Below are positions 52,587 to 61,183 of a stretch of DNA of 64,000 bases, piece after piece (the stretch's first letter is position 1; each line of letters starts with the position of its first letter). The position numbers and the translations under genes are program-made. Below the pieces are notes generated by a model. The model saw nothing but the letters and a program-made list of their open reading frames with translations. It was not told the origin of the DNA and ran no database searches. This stretch comes from a virus: positions 1 to 64,000 of the IMG/VR virus record IMGVR_UViG_3300023236_000006; one strand, written 5' to 3'.

Positions 52587-54218
52587 TTAAAACGTAATTA
52601 TTGATTCGATCTCTGGACAATAAAGGTATGGGATCCCAGACTGAAGACATGTTCTTATAGCATCGTCCATTGTTTGAACCAGAGTGTCTCCAGCTAGATT
52701 AAACGATGTATTTAAGATCATAGGAACACCCGTAAGGCTGTCAAACTCACTGATTAAAGCATGATAGTTCGGGTTCTGACTCTCATTAATGGTCTGTATC
52801 CTAGAAGTCCCGTCGTTGTGCATTAACCCTGGGATAAGTGCTGCGGTCCCGTCCTGGGAGTCAACAGCATACAGCATATAGGGGCTAGACTTTAGTGTGT
52901 ACATGTCAAACCACTGAGATGCCTTCTCTTCAAGCACAGTGCCTCCAAAAGGCCTAAAGCTCTCACGCTTCTTGATCATGTTGAGAACATCTCTTGCATC
53001 TCTGTCTCTTGGGTCATAAAGTATTGACCTATTGCCGAGGGCCCTTGGTCCAGCTTCTGCTTTGCCCTGATATATGGCGACCACGTTTCTCTCGGAAAGA
53101 AGCTTTGCCACGTCTTTGGGCGAAGCCTGTACGATGTCTCTTATGTCTCTCGAATCAAATCTGTGGTCGGCTGGGCCACTAAGGTATAGGGTCTCAAGCT
53201 CCCTTATATCGTGGTCTCCGCTAAGCGTGTGCCACCAATACTTTGCTGCCCCCAAGGCAGTTCCTGCGTCTGAGGAGTTAGGCTCTATGTAAAAGTTTGC
53301 ATGAGGGAATAGCTTTAGCAGCTTGTAGTTATTCACACAGTTAAGGAAGTATCCTCCAGAGAGGCAAACGTTATCGTGTTTTGAGTTATCTAATGCTTCT
53401 CTAACTAAGTTAACTATGGGGATTAGAGAGTCGTTCTGAATCCTAAAAGCCAGGTCCTCGTTAGACATCCCATGTGTAAATATTCCTGGGTTAGCATCGT
53501 CTTCTATAAAAGCTCTTGGATCCTCCTTCTGGTCTACCCCGTATGCCGATAGACCCATGACCTTGCCTGCTTGGTGATAGTCTCCAAAGATATCAATACC
53601 AGCCTTACTAAACATCTTGCCAATGCTCATATCTGCGTCGTGGACCTTGACTTCATACTCAGTAGGCAATGGGCTAGCACATGGAGAAAGGTAGGTCTTG
53701 TCTGCCAGCTCTCCAGAAAGCTGCTGGTAGTTGAGTAGGGTATGCTGCTTGATTACTTTTTTTAGCTTTACGTCAAAGTTGTTATATTTTGCAGAGAAGA
53801 TAGTCTCTGTCTCTCTATATAGGTATTCATCATCGATAAAGGCTTGGCCAGCACCGTCTACAACCAAAACTGAGGCCTCGTCGAACCCTGAGTTGTAGAA
53901 GGCTGCTGCTGCGTGGGCTAAGTGGTGATCTCTCATGAAGTGAATCTCTGGCATGACATAGTCCTCAAAGTGATTGAGCTTGCCATGTGCTCCCATTAAG
54001 CTTGCAAAAAGGTCTTTTACTTTTATCTCATACGGTGTTGCAGAGGTAAAGACGACGTGGGTAGGGTTAAACTTCATACCAGCTACGAAGCTATGAATTA
54101 CCCCAGTGGTATGCTTCTCGTGAGTGACTCTCTCTTCTTCTTGGTAGAAGACAACCTTGCCCTTATCTAAAACACAGACACTTCCGTCATGTGATAAGTT
54201 CACGCCCATGATTATCAT
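52587..54218 (-). CDS. NodU/TobZ-type carbamoyltransferase
   Basis: 543 aa. GVNLSHDGSVCVL and MRDHHLAHAAAAFYNSGFDEA (metal-binding His) mark the Kae1-like domain (about 1-350); GPRALGNRSIL and ESFRPFGGTVL mark the YrdC-like C-terminal domain. Such enzymes transfer carbamoyl from carbamoyl phosphate via carbamoyl-AMP to a hydroxyl, often of a sugar. The complete domain set suggests activity. Overlaps the deacetylase gene (ATGA). Confidence 0.88.
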   Translation of the reverse strand: MIIMGVNLSHDGSVCVLDKGKVVFYQEEERVTHEKHTTGVIHSFVAGMKFNPTHVVFTSATPYEIKVKDLFASLMGAHGKLNHFEDYVMPEIHFMRDHHLAHAAAAFYNSGFDEASVLVVDGAGQAFIDDEYLYRETETIFSAKYNNFDVKLKKVIKQHTLLNYQQLSGELADKTYLSPCASPLPTEYEVKVHDADMSIGKMFSKAGIDIFGDYHQAGKVMGLSAYGVDQKEDPRAFIEDDANPGIFTHGMSNEDLAFRIQNDSLIPIVNLVREALDNSKHDNVCLSGGYFLNCVNNYKLLKLFPHANFYIEPNSSDAGTALGAAKYWWHTLSGDHDIRELETLYLSGPADHRFDSRDIRDIVQASPKDVAKLLSERNVVAIYQGKAEAGPRALGNRSILYDPRDRDARDVLNMIKKRESFRPFGGTVLEEKASQWFDMYTLKSSPYMLYAVDSQDGTAALIPGLMHNDGTSRIQTINESQNPNYHALISEFDSLTGVPMILNTSFNLAGDTLVQTMDDAIRTCLQSGIPYLYCPEIESIITF

Positions 54219-54817
54219 TTGATTACCTGGTTACCGACAGCGAACACTTCTGCATACTTGGTGTCAAGGTATGAGCCTCGCCATACGTCATGGTGCATGA
54301 CTCCTCTTACCCATTTATTTGGTATGTTGTCGTATGCCTTGACGGCATTGAGCTTGGACTTGTATGACCATGAACCAATGTCAATATATAGGTCTGGTGT
54401 AAAGTGCTTATATTTTAGGTTGTATGGGTGAGCAGACATGTACCATAGGTCCATAGGTTGCTTCCTGGCTAAAATATTTCCTATTTCATGACATGCCTGG
54501 TGGTCCTGGTGCCAGTCTTCGTTCCAGTGCGTTATGATTAAGTCCACTGTAGAAAAGTCAACCATTACCTCTAACTCTTTGATTACATTTTTGTCTACTT
54601 TGACTGAGTTGGACATGGAAAATATGATAGGATCTATCCCTAGATAACCTGATGCTCTATTTAGATACTCTAGGTGAGGAACCCCCCCTGCCATGACTAT
54701 GCTAGTCACCTTATTACCATCTTCTACAAATTTTGCAACTGTTCCTCCGCAGGACATCTCTAGGTCATCGGGGTGAGCAGAAAGGATAACTATATGTTTT
54801 TCTTTTAAAGTCTGCAT
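54215..54817 (-). CDS. PIG-L/LmbE-type deacetylase
   Basis: 200 aa. SAHPDDLEMSCGG (H-P-D-D zinc site) and HWNEDWHQDHQAC (H-x2-D-H). Removes N-acetyl groups from GlcNAc-type substrates, as in mycothiol or GPI synthesis. Leaderless (TATACT 6 nt before the ATG). Next to the carbamoyltransferase, so both may act on one glycan. Confidence 0.85.
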   Translation of the reverse strand: MQTLKEKHIVILSAHPDDLEMSCGGTVAKFVEDGNKVTSIVMAGGVPHLEYLNRASGYLGIDPIIFSMSNSVKVDKNVIKELEVMVDFSTVDLIITHWNEDWHQDHQACHEIGNILARKQPMDLWYMSAHPYNLKYKHFTPDLYIDIGSWSYKSKLNAVKAYDNIPNKWVRGVMHHDVWRGSYLDTKYAEVFAVGNQVIK

Positions 54818-54832
54818 ATCTAAAGTATACCA

Positions 54833-55720
54833 CTAAAACTTATTTTTGTCTAGCAATGCCTTGGCACGTGTAAACTCAAAGAAAGATCTGTTTGCTGACC
54901 AGAAGTCGTCTGGAGTTCTTTCTGCGTTGGGGATTGCGTATGGCCCCGTATTATATATATAAGCCATCGTCATGTCTTCATCACTGTCGTCGATCTCTGG
55001 AACTGCCCCAAACTCCTTGGCCTTTACCTGATCAATTGACGCAACATAGATTGAATCATCGTGGGTCATAAGGTCCTGATGGTATTGGTAAGTGTCCCAA
55101 CCTGAAAGGTAAGCCCTATAACCAAGGTATGCCTGCTCCTGATTGTATTGAGACCTAGAGTCTAGCCCCACCTCTTTGATAAACCTACCGTCAAAGAATA
55201 TCTGCCCTACCCTCATAAAGGAAATCTTTTCTATCTCCTTTTCTGGTATGTACCTACCATTTACTGGTTGGGCAGCTACATTAAGAGGAAGCTTTGTGGA
55301 AGTCCTTTGCTCAATTCTGAACCTAGAGGACATAGCCTCTTTTCCGTATAGCCCTAAAGGAAACACTATAACTTTGTAGGTCTTAGTAGACTCCTGCAAT
55401 TCTTTTATGACAGATACGAGTTTTGTGTCCCAACCTTGAGTAAATTGCATATGAGAGTCTATCATCAAGAAGTAATCTTCATCTTTAAAAAGTTGAGAGA
55501 TCTCGTAACGCACTTTGACTATTCCAGGCCTAGTTCTTGGATTCCAGGAAAGGATCCTTAGCTGACTCTGGGGAAGTGAAGATAGGTCTGGTAATTCTTC
55601 GTACTGCAATCCCAATCCAAAAACCAAATCTTCGGGGTTGTCTGACCTCTGAAGAGCTCTCTCGATTGTTCTCACCAGAGTTGGGTCTTGGTATGAGGCA
55701 ATTGATATAAAGATACTCAT
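54833..55720 (-). CDS. GlcNAc-transferase-type glycosyltransferase
   Basis: 295 aa. SIFISIASYQDPTL..., YFLMIDSHMQFTQGWD (D-S-H, metal site), YNQEQAYLGYRAYLSGWDTY. This matches the eukaryote/bacteria 'glycosyltransferase (GlcNAc)' family (Skp1-type, PF11397). Acceptor unknown. Overlaps the epimerase gene. Confidence 0.8.
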   Translation of the reverse strand: MSIFISIASYQDPTLVRTIERALQRSDNPEDLVFGLGLQYEELPDLSSLPQSQLRILSWNPRTRPGIVKVRYEISQLFKDEDYFLMIDSHMQFTQGWDTKLVSVIKELQESTKTYKVIVFPLGLYGKEAMSSRFRIEQRTSTKLPLNVAAQPVNGRYIPEKEIEKISFMRVGQIFFDGRFIKEVGLDSRSQYNQEQAYLGYRAYLSGWDTYQYHQDLMTHDDSIYVASIDQVKAKEFGAVPEIDDSDEDMTMAYIYNTGPYAIPNAERTPDDFWSANRSFFEFTRAKALLDKNKF

Positions 55721-56637
55721 AACAGGTCCCTGATAATATCACCGAGGCTGAACTCTGGGCTCCAGCCTAAAGCCTTAAGCTTGCTGATGTCTGGCACACG
55801 CCTGCTAATCTCTGTATATCCAGGGTACACCTCCTCATACTCCTTGTGCCTTACGTCTGAGTGGGAGTTCGACATCCTTATCACAGTTGAGGCAAGGTTG
55901 TTTATGGAGACCTCTGTTGGGTTTCCTACGTTATACACTTCCCCTATTTTACCCTTTAAGATAATTTCACATATTCCTCGGACCGTATCTGATACATGAC
56001 AAAAAGACCTTGTCTGCGTTCCATCGCCATATACGTAAAGGCTATTATCGTTTTTGGCAGCATGAATAAACCTGGGCATAACCATCCCATACTCTCCAGA
56101 CTGTCCTGGGCCAGCGACATTGAATAGCCTGCCTATCTTAACTTTTAGTCCGTGTTCTTTTGCGTCTAGGAGTAGCAACCGCTCAGACATGGACTTGGAC
56201 TCTGCGTATCCCCAGCGGTTATCTCCCGTGCCTCCCAGTATCCTTGTAGAGTCTTCCCTCAATGGGACGTCTGGGCAAAGACCATAGACTTCGGAAGTAG
56301 AGGAGAAGAACAGTCCTGCATTGTACCTGAGGCATAGAAGAGAAACTATCTCTGTAGCCTTTAGGTTGTTCTGCATTGACCCATAGGGATTAAAGATACC
56401 CTGCTTCATACCTGCTAAAGCTGCGAGGTGAACTACGTAGTCCGCCCATTCAAAATGAGAAGAGACGTCATCCTCCAACAAGCTTTGACTAATAAGACTA
56501 ACTCCTATAGGCCACTGAGAAGTGTCTACATTTTTCTTGTTATCTAAAGCTCTAACGCTATAGCCTAAGTTATGGAGCATTCTTACAGTATGCATACCGA
56601 CAAACCCTGCAGCACCAGTTACCAAAATGTTTTTCAC
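55717..56637 (-). CDS. NAD-dependent sugar epimerase/dehydratase
   Basis: 306 aa. VTGAAGFVGMHTVRML (Rossmann), SSTSEVYG, YAESK (Y-x3-K), QTRSFCHVSD. Extended SDR; 4-epimerase or UDP-glucuronate decarboxylase are both possible. With the upstream dehydrogenase a UDP-uronate to UDP-pentose route is conceivable. GTG start at 56637, since the in-frame ATG (56646) lies inside the TATAAT. Confidence 0.85.
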   Translation of the reverse strand: MKNILVTGAAGFVGMHTVRMLHNLGYSVRALDNKKNVDTSQWPIGVSLISQSLLEDDVSSHFEWADYVVHLAALAGMKQGIFNPYGSMQNNLKATEIVSLLCLRYNAGLFFSSTSEVYGLCPDVPLREDSTRILGGTGDNRWGYAESKSMSERLLLLDAKEHGLKVKIGRLFNVAGPGQSGEYGMVMPRFIHAAKNDNSLYVYGDGTQTRSFCHVSDTVRGICEIILKGKIGEVYNVGNPTEVSINNLASTVIRMSNSHSDVRHKEYEEVYPGYTEISRRVPDISKLKALGWSPEFSLGDIIRDLL

Positions 56638-56678
56638 AATTACCATTATACCTCAGAAGGTGATGATATACTAGACCT

Positions 56679-57242
56679 ATGGACATTTTTAGTGCAAAAG
56701 AAGAAAGCAAAATATTCGTAGATAGGGGGTTGGCAGAAGTCCTTCCCTCATGGTCAGATTTTGAATCCTTGTTTGATGCTGCTCAGGGAAAAGAATCGGT
56801 TAACTGGTCATCCTTTGCGACATTTAATGTAGACAATGCCGAGGCTCTGACGGAAGTCTTTGATGACCTCTTATCCATGGCAAACGAAAGGCACTCTGGA
56901 GATCTAATAGCTGTCTTGGCTATCACGCACTTTGAGAACAGCGTTAACAATTCGATCCCAGCAGAAGCCGATAACTTCTACCAAAAGTTTACATCATCTA
57001 ATCCACAGAAAAAGCCCAGAGACTTTGACCCAACCATGATGTCTGCGACAATTCACTCTGACCCTGTAGACGGAATGTTCTTCCAGTGTGTTGGAGAAAC
57101 TCTGTGGACAGCCTATTACGGAGAGGTAGAAGAGTCTTGGACTATCAGGCCTGGTGACATGGTTTACATTCCTAGTGGGGTCGTTCATAGTGTTAAAAGT
57201 TTAATGCCCAGATGTTCCATATCTATAGGTTTTAACGACTGA
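56679..57242 (+). CDS. JmjC/cupin-type oxygenase-like protein
   Basis: 187 aa. ATIHSDPVDGMFFQ (H-x-D), SWTIRPGDMVYIPSGVVHSV (distal His) give the cupin Fe(II) triad; Lys/Arg for 2OG is uncertain. TATACT 6 nt before the ATG. Adjacent to a glycan operon on the opposite strand. Confidence 0.75.
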   Translation: MDIFSAKEESKIFVDRGLAEVLPSWSDFESLFDAAQGKESVNWSSFATFNVDNAEALTEVFDDLLSMANERHSGDLIAVLAITHFENSVNNSIPAEADNFYQKFTSSNPQKKPRDFDPTMMSATIHSDPVDGMFFQCVGETLWTAYYGEVEESWTIRPGDMVYIPSGVVHSVKSLMPRCSISIGFND

Positions 57243-57262
57243 CAATGATATAATTATAACAT

Positions 57263-57511
57263 ATGTCCATATTCTCAGAGTTTCAGGCCTACAAAGAGTC
57301 GGTTGGGTGCTTTGACTGTTTAGTTAAGTACCCCCATTACATCCTTGAGTTTGATCACAGGCCAGAGTTTAAAAAAATAGACATTGTCTACAGGGTATTG
57401 AAGAAGTTTGGACAGGAAGCAGCTTGGAATGAAGCAAAGAAGTGTGACGTTGTTTGTTCTAATTGTCACAAAGAAAGAACTTACGAGAGAGATATGAGAC
57501 TAAAAAAATGA
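57263..57511 (+). CDS. Small HNH-type endonuclease-like protein
   Basis: 82 aa. CFDC, LEFDHRP (the central H) and CDVVCSNCHKERTYER form the HNH/His-Me finger with four Cys for zinc. May be a free-standing endonuclease. Leader nearly absent (TATAAT 8 nt upstream). Confidence 0.8.
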   Translation: MSIFSEFQAYKESVGCFDCLVKYPHYILEFDHRPEFKKIDIVYRVLKKFGQEAAWNEAKKCDVVCSNCHKERTYERDMRLKK

Positions 57512-58080
57512 TTATTGTAGACAAAGACTTTGGGGACAAAGAGCTAAAAGATGAGCTTTCAGACGCAATCCTTGGTTGGGATCCTAAGTTTCAGTGGGTC
57601 TTTGCCCCTGCTAGCAACATGTCAGACATGAATGGCCATAATGCAATGCTAGACGATATGGTTTATGAGCATCTCATGTTCGTTTCTCTCGTAGGTCCAG
57701 GACATCCTTACAGGAAAAAGATTGTAGAACTATTTAATTCTTTCATAATAAAGCATAAGCTTAAGTACACAGAGATAGCAAGAATAAAGATTAACATTGT
57801 ACCAATGGCTGGTAAAGACAGTATTGGAAAATATCAGATGCCCCATGTCGATTTAAATGAAAAGCATAAGGTTTTCCTATACTATATAAATGACTCTGAT
57901 GGTGATACTTACTTGTTTAATGAGACTCTTGGAGATACCCCTCCAGAAAAGTTTACCCTTGATCAGAAGATTAGTCCTGAAGCTGGCAAGGGTGTAGTCT
58001 TTGATGGTAACATTTTCCATGCTCCTAGTGCGCCAACCGAGTCAGCGTTTAGAGCAGTTATTAATCTTGACTTTGTCTAA
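57508..58080 (+). CDS. 2OG-Fe(II) oxygenase-like protein
   Basis: 190 aa from the ATG overlapping the HNH stop. MPHVDLNEKHKVFLYYIND (H-x-D), DGNIFHAPSAP (H), FRAVINLDFV (Arg). Third to fourth non-haem iron oxygenase candidate in the window. Ends 20 bp inside the convergent gene. Confidence 0.75.
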   Translation: MIIVDKDFGDKELKDELSDAILGWDPKFQWVFAPASNMSDMNGHNAMLDDMVYEHLMFVSLVGPGHPYRKKIVELFNSFIIKHKLKYTEIARIKINIVPMAGKDSIGKYQMPHVDLNEKHKVFLYYINDSDGDTYLFNETLGDTPPEKFTLDQKISPEAGKGVVFDGNIFHAPSAPTESAFRAVINLDFV

Positions 58081-58342
58081 AGATTTCTGTCAAACTCTTT
58101 GATCGTGTAAAGTCTTTTCCCAATCCTGCAAACAGTGACTTGTCATCTTCATGGTCCTCGTTGGCCATCAATGATCCGTCGGGCATACGGTGATATCCCT
58201 CTGGGGCATTATCTTCGTCTCCGCTGTATGACTTCGTTGCAGGTACACAGTTTGGGACTTGCTTACCGTTTGCTCCTGGCTTCATACCTCGTTGGACGTA
58301 TCCATCCCAGCATGGGGACTGCTTATCTAAGTTTTCTGACAT
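58061..58342 (-). CDS. Phage protein with CWxGYxQxGMKxxxG motif
   Basis: 93 aa. PCWDGYVQRGMKPGANGK ... VPNCVPA recurs at the ends of phage structural or proteolysis-associated proteins (e.g. T4-like phages). Acidic C-terminus. Leaderless with the same TATAATATATACATG as at 22208. Confidence 0.65.
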   Translation of the reverse strand: MSENLDKQSPCWDGYVQRGMKPGANGKQVPNCVPATKSYSGDEDNAPEGYHRMPDGSLMANEDHEDDKSLFAGLGKDFTRSKSLTEIFRQSQD

Positions 58343-58354
58343 GTATATATTATA

Positions 58355-59038
58355 TCATGACTCGTTAAGAGTTTTGGTGTATATTTTTAAGGCTTCTGGA
58401 GTACCCAAGTCATGCATCCGATCTACAAAGACTGGGGATATGCTTAACCCATCATTGAGGGCATACTGATATACGGGGGCAACGTAGTATTCCCCGTGGT
58501 AGCTGTCTCTAGCTGCAAACATTCTCTTTGCGTACCTTACGAAGTCACTACCTCTCTTCCAGTAATGGACTCCTGCTAGGGCATTATGACTAATCTCTTG
58601 TTTTTCTACAACTTTTACGATCCTATCCCCCACCACATCAGCATATGACCATCGGGTTCCAGAGGATTTAAAAAGAAGTAATGCCCCATCGGTAGTGATG
58701 TCTTTTAATATTGAGGAGTCCCATTCAACTATCTGGTCAGCATTAAGGATTACTAGTGGCACGTCGCTGTCTATTAGATCTTCTGCTAACATGGCACTCG
58801 TGGCTGGCCCAGATGTCGTTGATTCTACCTCGATGATCGTAGTGGGCATTCCCCAGTCAACTAAGGATAATCTAAAACCTTTTCTGGAGACAAGAATCAG
58901 CTCCCCTTTTAGACCTAGGCTTTCTAGGGCCAGCTGATACATTGGCTTGCCATCGATTATGATTAAGGGCTTTGGAAGATTGTATTCACTATCAAAGAAT
59001 CTAGATCCTTCTCCAGACATCAGTAATAGGATGTTCAC
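58355..59038 (-). CDS. Sugar/choline nucleotidyltransferase
   Basis: 227 aa, GTG start. LLMSGEGSRF (variant of G-x-G-x-R) and KPLIIIDGKPM, then ILNADQIVEW near 100. NDP-sugar pyrophosphorylase/LicC-like fold; activates a phospho-metabolite with an NTP. Overlaps the kinase-like gene by 1 nt, so the pair may act in sequence. Confidence 0.85.
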   Translation of the reverse strand: MNILLLMSGEGSRFFDSEYNLPKPLIIIDGKPMYQLALESLGLKGELILVSRKGFRLSLVDWGMPTTIIEVESTTSGPATSAMLAEDLIDSDVPLVILNADQIVEWDSSILKDITTDGALLLFKSSGTRWSYADVVGDRIVKVVEKQEISHNALAGVHYWKRGSDFVRYAKRMFAARDSYHGEYYVAPVYQYALNDGLSISPVFVDRMHDLGTPEALKIYTKTLNES

Positions 59039-59880
59039 TAATGACCTATCTCTGTAAGAATCTCCCCTGCCCTAGTCAGAAATTGATCTACATGAGAAGT
59101 ATTTTCGTAATGAATAGGACACATAGAAAGAAACAAGGATGCTTCATACAGCCTAAGAAGATCATAGCAGATTTCTTTTTCTTCTAAGAAAGAAATAAAA
59201 ATATCCTTAAGCTCTTCATCTATTGCAATATCCTTCCCATGAACTATAAAGTCGTAACCACCAAGAATACTTTGGCTTAGCTTTGCTAGATCGTAGTATT
59301 CGTCTAAGTGCATGCTCTCGACGCCTCTGGGGTCGATGAAGGTTGCGTCTTCAAGAATATTGGAGAAGCATAGGTCTCCGTGAGATAAGACAGTTCGGAA
59401 GGTTTTTCTTTCCTTCATGAATAAGCTTTCAAAAGCTTTTCTTATTCTTGCTACGTAGTCCTCGGTGAGGGTGTCATACTTCCCAGATGATAATATAGAT
59501 AGTTCCTCTGACCTTGCCTTAGCTTTATTTACGATTAGGTCATGAGATTTAGAAAATAGCATTGGGAGCTCTATCTCTGTATAAGTCTGTGACTTGAACT
59601 CATCTATTCTTGGGAAAAGGCCTTGCACCATGTTATACGTCAGAGTGTCGTGGGCATAATGATGTCCAAAGTCGTTGCCTGGAATTAGGTTCATGATGTA
59701 ACTACAGGAATCAAGACCTTCTTTAAAGTCTCTTCCTACTGCAAAGAAGATATGGTAGGTCTCTGGGATCTCTTGGTAGTAAGCATACTCAGATTTGAGC
59801 TTATCTACGTTGGTGGATGTTTTTGTTACTATAAAATCTTCTACCGAGATTTTTGTGAAGCTTCTAGTTATATATTCCAT
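59038..59880 (-). CDS. Aminoglycoside/choline kinase-like phosphotransferase
   Basis: 280 aa. LSHGDLCFSNIL (Brenner motif) and FIDPRG (metal Asp), then EYYDLAKLSQSI. APH/choline kinase superfamily. The start at 59880 has TATACT 6 nt upstream. With the nucleotidyltransferase it resembles LicA-LicC type two-step activation. The real substrate is not evident. Confidence 0.8.
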   Translation of the reverse strand: MEYITRSFTKISVEDFIVTKTSTNVDKLKSEYAYYQEIPETYHIFFAVGRDFKEGLDSCSYIMNLIPGNDFGHHYAHDTLTYNMVQGLFPRIDEFKSQTYTEIELPMLFSKSHDLIVNKAKARSEELSILSSGKYDTLTEDYVARIRKAFESLFMKERKTFRTVLSHGDLCFSNILEDATFIDPRGVESMHLDEYYDLAKLSQSILGGYDFIVHGKDIAIDEELKDIFISFLEEKEICYDLLRLYEASLFLSMCPIHYENTSHVDQFLTRAGEILTEIGH

Positions 59881-59911
59881 AAGACAAGTATACACCACAA
59901 GAGTCCACGAA

Positions 59912-60982
59912 CTAACATTCTAGTGACTTTCTTAAAAAAAGATTATTTTCTATTTTGTCTACAATTTCGCTACCGTGTCTTAGACTAGAAGGAATAGCTA
60001 GATAGTTCATCCCCATTGCGTAGGCCAAGGTGGAGTAGTGAGGGTGATAGTCAACCATTGGGGACCCATTATCTGAAGTTGCCAATGGGGTAGCTATCTC
60101 TAAGACTAAACCTCCCCTTTTCATGAACAAGGCATTCCACAAGCCTGCGCCTGTTACTCCTGCTATCACTTTTGCCGAGGCAAAGAACCTAACCTGATCC
60201 TCATAGGACTCAAACTCCTCTGCATAAACAATGACAAACCCCAAGGACTTAAAATATTCTTCTAGCAGCTTCTCATTGTAAAGCCTTACATCGTCAAGGA
60301 TGAAAGAGTTATCTTCGTGTGGACTATTCTTGACACTCACATCTCTTGGTGTGGTCTTTGACCTGCTGACATAGATTTTCTCTGTGGGGTCTGCATGGTC
60401 AGTTACGAATGTAGATCTAAAAAGTTCTGAGGTTAACCTGAGTCCAAAGAACTTCTGCAAGAAACCTTTGACATCCCCATGAGGTGACCTGGAGGGGCTA
60501 GATATTACGAAGTTGTCTATTGATACCCTGGTCTTCTCGCTTGCTGTAATGTAACTAACTCTATGACCTTGCAATACTAAGGCTTTTTCGAGAGAATCAA
60601 ATAGTGAGTTATTCCTTAGCAATCCTTCTCTTAGATTATGAAACTTAGCCTTTTCTATTCCGTTATCAACGAAAACAATCTCTGAACTGGGGAACCAGGA
60701 GGCCATTCTGAGTAAATCCGAAAGGGTGTCTTCTATTATGTGGCTCACGGATGGTGCTATTACCGAAACTATCTTTACGTCTTGCCCCAAGAACGTATAG
60801 TCGTATGGCTCAAAAGAATCTTTCTTTACGTCACTGATAATCACTCCCTCAGTAGAGGATAAGTAAAAGAGCTTATTCATGTTAAAGGTTAGCTCTTTTT
60901 TCATGATATTCGGGGATACGTGATCTGGCCTAGGATCATTGTACTTTGGCTCATGATAAGGGGTTTGCCTGTGAAGTGTCAT
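59912..60982 (-). CDS. GT61-like (DUF563) glycosyltransferase
   Basis: 356 aa. KIYVSRSKTTPRDV near 205 and IAGVTGAGLWNALFMKRGG near 290-308, typical of GT61. Likely transfers a sugar to glycan or protein. Its 5' leader of about 150 nt contains the structured RNA at 61050-61136. Confidence 0.8.
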   Translation of the reverse strand: MTLHRQTPYHEPKYNDPRPDHVSPNIMKKELTFNMNKLFYLSSTEGVIISDVKKDSFEPYDYTFLGQDVKIVSVIAPSVSHIIEDTLSDLLRMASWFPSSEIVFVDNGIEKAKFHNLREGLLRNNSLFDSLEKALVLQGHRVSYITASEKTRVSIDNFVISSPSRSPHGDVKGFLQKFFGLRLTSELFRSTFVTDHADPTEKIYVSRSKTTPRDVSVKNSPHEDNSFILDDVRLYNEKLLEEYFKSLGFVIVYAEEFESYEDQVRFFASAKVIAGVTGAGLWNALFMKRGGLVLEIATPLATSDNGSPMVDYHPHYSTLAYAMGMNYLAIPSSLRHGSEIVDKIENNLFLRKSLEC

Positions 60983-61049
60983 TACTCAATCTTTCTTAAG
61001 TTTTAGACTTACGTCTACCTCTTAGTCTAGCAGATTATAGGATAGAAAT

Positions 61050-61136
61050 GTCCCCATACAGCAACCATGGCGTAACCCGATATAAAAATGGTAACTAGTC
61101 ATCCTAAAGTGGCTAATCCTTGCCCTGTATGAGGAC
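61050..61136 (-). ncRNA. Structured RNA / leader closed by a 12-bp stem
   Basis: Arms GTCCTCATACAG (61136-61125) and CTGTATGGGGAC (61061-61050) pair over 12 bp (one G-U). The predicted transcription start of TATAAT (61143-61148) is exactly the first stem base. About 63 nt are enclosed, with smaller pairings such as GGC-AAGGATTA-GCC. Either a riboswitch-like leader of the GT61 gene or an independent small RNA. No known family recognised. Confidence 0.6.
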
Positions 61137-61142
61137 TATTCT

Positions 61143-61171
61143 ATTATAGCATAAGAAAAGACGGACCACAA
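61143..61171 (-). promoter_or_regulatory. Promoter of the structured RNA / GT61 operon
   Basis: TTGTGG, 17 nt, TATAAT on the minus strand. The -35 lies in the arm of the upstream terminator. Confidence 0.75.
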
Positions 61172-61183
61172 TAGTGATCCGTC
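61152..61183 (-). terminator. Intrinsic terminator of the holin-like operon
   Basis: 10-bp stem GACGGATCAC/GTGGTCCGTC (one G-U), loop TATT, followed by TTTTCTTAT on the minus strand. 20 nt after the stop at 61203. Confidence 0.9.

Follow-up and report, generated by a model that had tools for sequence, protein, structure and literature searches.

Background

Phages are known to alter translation in their hosts via proteins, tRNAs, and ribosomal-protein genes. Structured phage RNAs include the wcaG and manA motifs, some of which are located near sugar-nucleotide genes; the RNA described here differs from them in its gene association and gave no match to them in Rfam scans. Among phage antisense RNAs, c4 of P1/P7 is likewise short and structured and carries complementary sequences in its loops (PMC12197685). 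However, c4 and the other known phage antisense small RNAs act on mRNA, whereas the predicted target here is 23S rRNA. A review of small RNAs derived from phages, published in 2025, makes no mention of rRNA (PMC12197685), and in the literature searched, mostly open-access, we found no phage or bacterial small RNA directed against 23S rRNA and no published counterpart of the present one.

Small RNAs pairing with functional centres of rRNA are represented by the archaeal and eukaryotic box C/D and H/ACA guides. In contrast to these guides, the antisense blocks of the RNA described here lie in one closed loop, and inspection of the alignments by eye revealed no box C/D (RUGAUGA, CUGA) or H/ACA motifs conserved beside the closing stem or at the 3' end. 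PNAs against helix 69 share the target helix and the antisense principle but are man-made, whereas the present RNA is natural, structured, and virus-encoded, and its predicted target extends from H69 to H71. 6S RNA has the same stand-alone rod-like form and also starts at its own promoter; however, it is a rod of ~180 nt with a promoter-mimicking bubble, whereas the present RNA has 87 nt, a different fold, no such bubble, and no Rfam match to 6S RNA.

The small RNA gene and its surroundings

The window, that is, the whole analyzed stretch of 64,000 nt of viral DNA, contains on its minus strand (61136→61050) an 87-nt RNA gene closed by the stem P1, as deduced from the sequence and its folding (Table 1). 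The preliminary description had proposed a 12-bp stem that encloses ~63 nt and starts at the +1 of a TTGTGG-17-TATAAT promoter, with an open reading frame for a GT61-like enzyme ~70 nt past the stem, and these elements were recovered as described: P1 encloses exactly 63 nt, the two promoter boxes are separated by a 17-nt spacer, the six letters AGAATA separate the perfect TATAAT from the first G of the stem at 61136, so that P1 begins 7 nt after the box, and the GT61 frame, co-directional with the small RNA, starts at 60982, 67 nt past the stem. The MFE of a 95-nt stretch is -31.0 kcal/mol compared to -19.8 +/- 2.8 for dinucleotide shuffles (z -4.07), none of 200 shuffles being as good.

Table 1. 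Features of the small RNA locus; positions refer to the window unless another record is named
Feature	Position	Strand	Remarks
Upstream small gene, 123 aa	61203..61574	-	No Pfam match; outside the RNA element
Intrinsic terminator of upstream gene	61160..61183	-	10-bp stem, 4-nt loop, TTTTCTT; overlaps the -35 of the small RNA
-35-like TTGTGG	61166..61171	-	4/6 letters, weak
-10 box TATAAT	61143..61148	-	6 nt ahead of the stem; recurs in homologs
Small RNA, 87 nt, closed by P1	61050..61136	-	
P1, 5' strand, GUCCUCAUACAG	61125..61136	-	Compensatory changes at most stem positions, family-wide
Antisense block C, GGCAAGG (GACAAGG in other members)	61118..61124	-	Complement of 23S CCUUGUC, E. coli 1941-1947
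Antisense block B, ACUUUAGGAUG	61100..61110	-	Complement, with one U.G, of actinobacterial 23S CAUCCUAAGGU, E. coli ~1921-1931
P3, weak hairpin AGGAUG/CAUUUU	61085..61105	-	Tandem G.U pairs; 9-nt loop ACUAGUUAC presenting block A; from homolog folds
Antisense block A, UAGUUACCA	61089..61097	-	Complement of UGGUAACUA, loop and 5' stem of 23S helix 69, ~1908-1916
GGGUUACGCCAU	61067..61078	-	P2 pairing partner of bases in the 5' loop; weakly supported 9-nt complementarity to E. coli 23S 1970-1978
P1, 3' strand, CUGUAUGGGGAC	61050..61061	-	T-rich right after it in most homologs, ATTTCT in the window; weak terminator-like
Second TATAAT	61034..61039	-	Between the small RNA and the GT61 gene; -10 recurs here in 45/60 homologs
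GT61-like glycosyltransferase gene	59912..60982	-	Pfam PF04577, E 1e-16; neighbour, outside the RNA element
ROSE_3-like matches	L093:4441-4493; L108:492-545; L090:1353-1405; L149:3214-3266	+; -; -; +	

Since the terminator ends the upstream gene, the small RNA starts in a gap between transcription units. The strong -10 region (ATGCTATAAT) probably dominates over the weak -35 box, and the second TATAAT is probably the GT61 gene's own promoter. For the 123-aa product of the upstream gene, a lysis or membrane function is our guess. The GT61 gene belongs to a sugar-gene cluster on the minus strand (52587-61000) that also encodes a carbamoyltransferase, an NAD-dependent epimerase, and a nucleotidyltransferase and probably serves surface sugar synthesis.

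Close relatives of the phage carry the small RNA without any change, while the sequences around it have drifted. In one relative, L004, the small RNA is identical to that of the window (0/87 changes), whereas differences of 1.6-6% are found in the genes and flanks next to it, with 39/1068 changes in the GT61 gene, 23/372 in the upstream gene, and 3/67, 4/66, and 13/826 in the other stretches around the RNA.

An RNA family of uncultured viruses

Homologs were gathered by scanning IMG/VR with three patterns and by a search for the stem; in addition, blastn and nhmmer, applied to loci retrieved by means of the upstream gene, detected distant copies behind hsp20-like genes. The resulting family comprises 60 distinct sequences from ~80 IMG/VR contigs. 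No Rfam 15 family reached its gathering score at the RNA, whether gathering or relaxed thresholds were used, three family members compared with GenBank phages by distant blastn produced chance or promoter-like matches only, and a pattern scan of cellular genomes returned six chance matches, two of them resembling tmRNA genes. The RNA is absent from the Streptomyces phages Riptide, Bmoc, and NootNoot, which have the most closely related portals among cultured phages. In each of 17 phage records searched with a covariance model, including contigs of 70-117 kb, a single sense-strand copy was observed.

The family has two main forms: type 1, to which the window belongs, is characterized by GGRCAAGG and a longer 5' loop, and type 2 by CUACGCUUAGGAUGGAUUAGUUACCUAUUUUAUGACCGUGGCCNNCGUGCUUGAAU. 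A covariance model built from type 1 recovers most of the type 2 members on which it was tried. With helices chosen per sequence, the letters of P1 pair in 99.7% of cells, compared to 86.9 +/- 1.1% when strands are swapped between members; in a fixed alignment, 14 cells of P1 carry double changes versus 4.1 in shuffles. Examples of compensated stems are CCCCGCAUAGG/CCUAUGCGGGG, GUCUCUCACACAG/CUGUGUGAGAGAU, and CCCCGUAUAG/CUAUACGGGG. As judged from these alignments, the closing stem is conserved through compensation, and the compensatory changes that a genuine stem should display are thus abundant.

With regard to a putative four-way or kissing P2/P4 model inside the RNA, a test of own versus foreign duplexes supports some P2 pairing (p 0.002), but the alignment register varies. 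The core letters of P3 are invariant across the family. Two other candidate features of the core were rejected, namely, a short peptide ATG-ATT-AGT-TAC, the frame of which is not conserved, and a likeness between the P3 loop and the 790 loop of 16S rRNA (AUUAGAUAC versus AUUAGUUAC), in which an invariant base differs and which explains less than antisense to 23S rRNA. A member missed by the patterns, L064:5950-6036 (+), has an insertion in P3 (CCUUAGUGAUGG) and one altered P3 strand, yet both anti-helix-69 blocks, CCUUAG and UAGUUACC, are retained. A divergent member, L174:168-256, has UUUGUUACC in place of UAGUUACC and is located within a phage array of more than 10 tRNAs. Separately, four phages of this group contain sub-threshold matches to the ROSE_3 thermosensor (20-23 bits, cut-off 43).

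The window phage encodes WhiB, which has been used as an actinophage marker in lakes (PMC6802176), and its portal protein is nearest to those of Streptomyces Stanwilliamsviridae (47% identical). Both features suggest an actinobacterial host for this phage. The uncultured viruses carrying the RNA family probably infect actinobacteria.

Complementarity to 23S rRNA

The initial lead was a complementarity to E. coli rRNA that indicated 23S positions 1910-1947. The core of the loop, CUUAGGAUG(G)N·UAGUUACC, is antisense to helix 69 of actinobacterial 23S rRNA, which reads GGUGGUAACUAUAACCAUCC in Arthrobacter and Nonomuraea, and to the H69–H71 strand next to it, corresponding to E. coli 1909–1947. 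The match over the whole core is CUUAGGAUGG-AU-UAGUUACC against GGUAACUA-U-AA-CCAUCCUAAG, with U1917 left unpaired. The first 7 nt of block A sit in the loop of P3, and block B doubles as the 5' strand of this hairpin.

Complementarity was scored on Arthrobacter 23S and E. coli 16S rRNA as references, from which the 23S rRNA of the presumed host may differ. For all 50 of 50 distinct loop sequences, the best site in the 23S locus ends at 1929-1950. The loop of the window scores 46.0 versus 33.1 +/- 2.6 in shuffles (z +5.0), and its duplex with 23S rRNA has -43.1 kcal/mol. Across the 50 loops, which come from related members and so do not provide independent scores, z ranges from +2.1 to +9.7, the weakest members being L126 (2.1), L148 (2.5), L153 (2.6), and L092 (2.7). 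Reversed, complemented, and sense controls score mostly near the shuffle level. For the segment that links P1 to the core, the collinear 23S stretch 1929-1950 has a median percentile rank of 0.013; the 3' half of the loop is weakly complementary to 23S 1950-1990 (median percentile 0.095). In the members compared, the fit to helix 69 of actinobacteria is better than the fit to its E. coli counterpart, in agreement with a WhiB-bearing phage that has a Streptomyces-phage-like portal.

The scores of related members are one strong observation with partly independent extensions, which are CUAC in type 2, GACAAGG in type 1, and the variant P3 of L064. The blocks matching 23S rRNA are the most conserved bases among otherwise diverse phages, and in the sequences compared the invariant loop letters are explained by complementarity to 23S rRNA and not by the weak hairpin P3 alone. 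The predicted pairing of the RNA with 23S H69–H71 is well supported by this sequence evidence.

Transcription unit and alternative explanations

A perfect TATAAT precedes P1 in 50 of the 60 members and five of its six letters in another 9, as assigned by a script with a few corrections by hand; in the one remaining member, at a contig edge, the -10 box is discernible by eye. The usual gap between the box and the stem is exactly 6 nt, as in the window. P1 is usually followed by T over several positions, which form a weak terminator-like tail. Up to 40 nt behind the RNA, a second -10 box is present in 45/60 members, and in 34 of these 45 it is followed 3-11 nt further on by an ATG, the most frequent spacing of 6 nt being that of leaderless mRNAs; such downstream genes would be transcribed without the RNA. 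The next genes are varied (ferritin-like/Dps, HNH-like, GT61 in only ~3/60, and several without identification), and Hsp20 is often the gene before the RNA. Given its own -10 box, varied or convergent neighbours, and the second promoters behind it, the RNA appears to be an independent small-RNA gene. Of the two possibilities named in the preliminary description, a phage small RNA is therefore favoured. The other one, an orphan riboswitch or cis-acting leader controlling GT61, would agree with the start at a predicted +1, the strong fold, the co-directional frame nearby, and a next gene on the same strand in 48/58 homologs; nevertheless, we find it scarcely credible, since the next genes are unrelated and in 10/58 cases lie on the opposite strand, facing the RNA, most members have the second promoter, no alternative expression platform was seen, no Rfam riboswitch matches, and the conserved loop is accounted for by rRNA antisense. 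Nucleotide sugars, which the preliminary description named for in-line probing, received no support as ligands. The complement of the loop resembles 23S 1908-1947, and the opposite strand might thus be the product, a helix 69 mimic serving as a decoy; the probability of this is practically negligible, because the -10 box has a fixed place on the minus-strand side, 85/710 P1 pairs are G.U and would be A.C on the opposite strand, and the covariance model scores 100 bits on the sense strand versus 22 bits on the antisense strand. Thus, the product strand is the minus strand.

The action of the minus-strand product can be read in other ways than inhibition of ribosome assembly. Most known bacterial and phage antisense RNAs act on mRNA (PMC12197685), and 7-nt seeds occur by chance in any genome; the RNA might act in trans on mRNA targets, its likeness to an rRNA complement being a relic of its origin. 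We regard this as highly improbable: a relic would decay, whereas the 23S-matching blocks are the most conserved ones in diverse phages and fit helix 69 as it occurs in actinobacteria, and another, unrelated RNA family, described below, matches the other form. The same 23S complementarity could also serve to protect or mark the ribosome, the RNA pairing with H69-H71 either to shield it from a host RNase toxin or to guide cleavage or modification of rRNA. Reports of rRNA-cleaving toxin-antitoxin RNases in mycobacteria and of RNase cleavage of H69 in another system (PMC13189344) are consistent with this possibility, as is U1917, a pseudouridine site in E. coli that both RNA families leave unpaired. 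However, no partner enzyme gene travels with the RNA among the neighbour genes of its homologs, and pairing over 1909-1947 would itself disturb the ribosome. The guide version is further weakened as no box C/D or H/ACA guide machinery is known in bacteria. Overall, we consider protection or guiding unlikely, though deserving attention.

Proposed action on ribosomes

The reading that we prefer, and hold to be likely, is that of a free-standing phage antisense RNA of ~87 nt that would pair with H69–H71 of 50S subunits that are free or still immature and thereby block their maturation or the formation of 70S ribosomes. The comparison shows the RNA family, the stem, the promoter sequence, and the complementarity; from these we infer both pairing in cells and its consequence, namely, blocked 50S maturation or subunit joining. 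The following sequence of events can be envisaged: (i) the P3 loop UAGUUAC would first kiss the exposed loop of helix 69, (ii) P3, held by G.U pairs, would open, and pairing would spread to 1921-1931 and 1941-1947, while P1 would protect the ends of the RNA, and (iii) the bound RNA would block the intersubunit bridge B2a and hence 50S maturation or 70S formation. Pairing would require a free helix 69, which would restrict it to nascent 23S rRNA, late pre-50S particles, and free 50S subunits. Helix 69 is buried in 70S ribosomes, and E. coli U1915 is a methylated pseudouridine; thus, pairing would be hindered in mature ribosomes, and unmodified new 23S rRNA would be favoured. The phage may in this way halt new host ribosomes or hold subunits back, with translating 70S ribosomes continuing to work. 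As the phage itself requires ribosomes, a broad inhibitor would need timing or restriction.

Several published observations concern the same site. A PNA against helix 69 stops growth of E. coli (Kulik 2017, as cited in PMC7038079), H69 mutants are impaired in translation or 70S formation (PMC1190176), and in late pre-50S particles of cells treated with chloramphenicol, both H69 and H71 show poor order (PMC11505724). If the proposed reading is true, RNA pairing with rRNA of the subunit interface would represent a new means of viral control over ribosomes and the natural equivalent of antisense agents directed at helix 69. An orphan structured RNA of many uncultured, apparently actinobacterial phages would thereby gain a meaning, and a direct test becomes possible, with one RNA, one target site, and clear predictions for mutants of both partners.

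A second, unrelated RNA family

A search of IMG/VR with the proteobacterial-type antisense pattern CTTAGGACCG(N0-2)TAGTTACGG identified 13 contigs versus ~1 expected by a rough estimate. Nine of the 13 contigs, together with two more, share a second structured RNA; its carriers are L186, L187, L188, L189, L190, L192, L194, L196, L197, L198, and L199, and an example is L192:2931-3040 (+). This RNA contains 13-14 and 9 nt of exact antisense (22 nt) to E. coli-type 23S 1908-1931, with U1917 as the sole base skipped, and a 10-11 nt complement of the 530 loop of 16S rRNA. It also has a recurrent AGUGAGC, antisense to 23S 1099-1105 in the GTPase centre, the match being 11 nt in L198. Besides the H69-H71 family, the second family thus carries antisense segments to helix 69, the 16S 530 loop, and, by a shorter match, the GTPase centre. 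It may be that structured RNAs complementary to functional centres of host ribosomes, and acting as ribosome effectors, arose more than once in phages, a generalization to which we assign roughly even chances.

At two loci annotated by eye, the second RNA follows a GIY-YIG-like frame (L189) and a nuclease-like frame (L192). In the other four of the 13 contigs, the related L185, L191, L193, and L195, the anti-helix-69 match CTTAGGACCGTAGTTACGG is located in a different, possibly coding stretch and may be due to chance.
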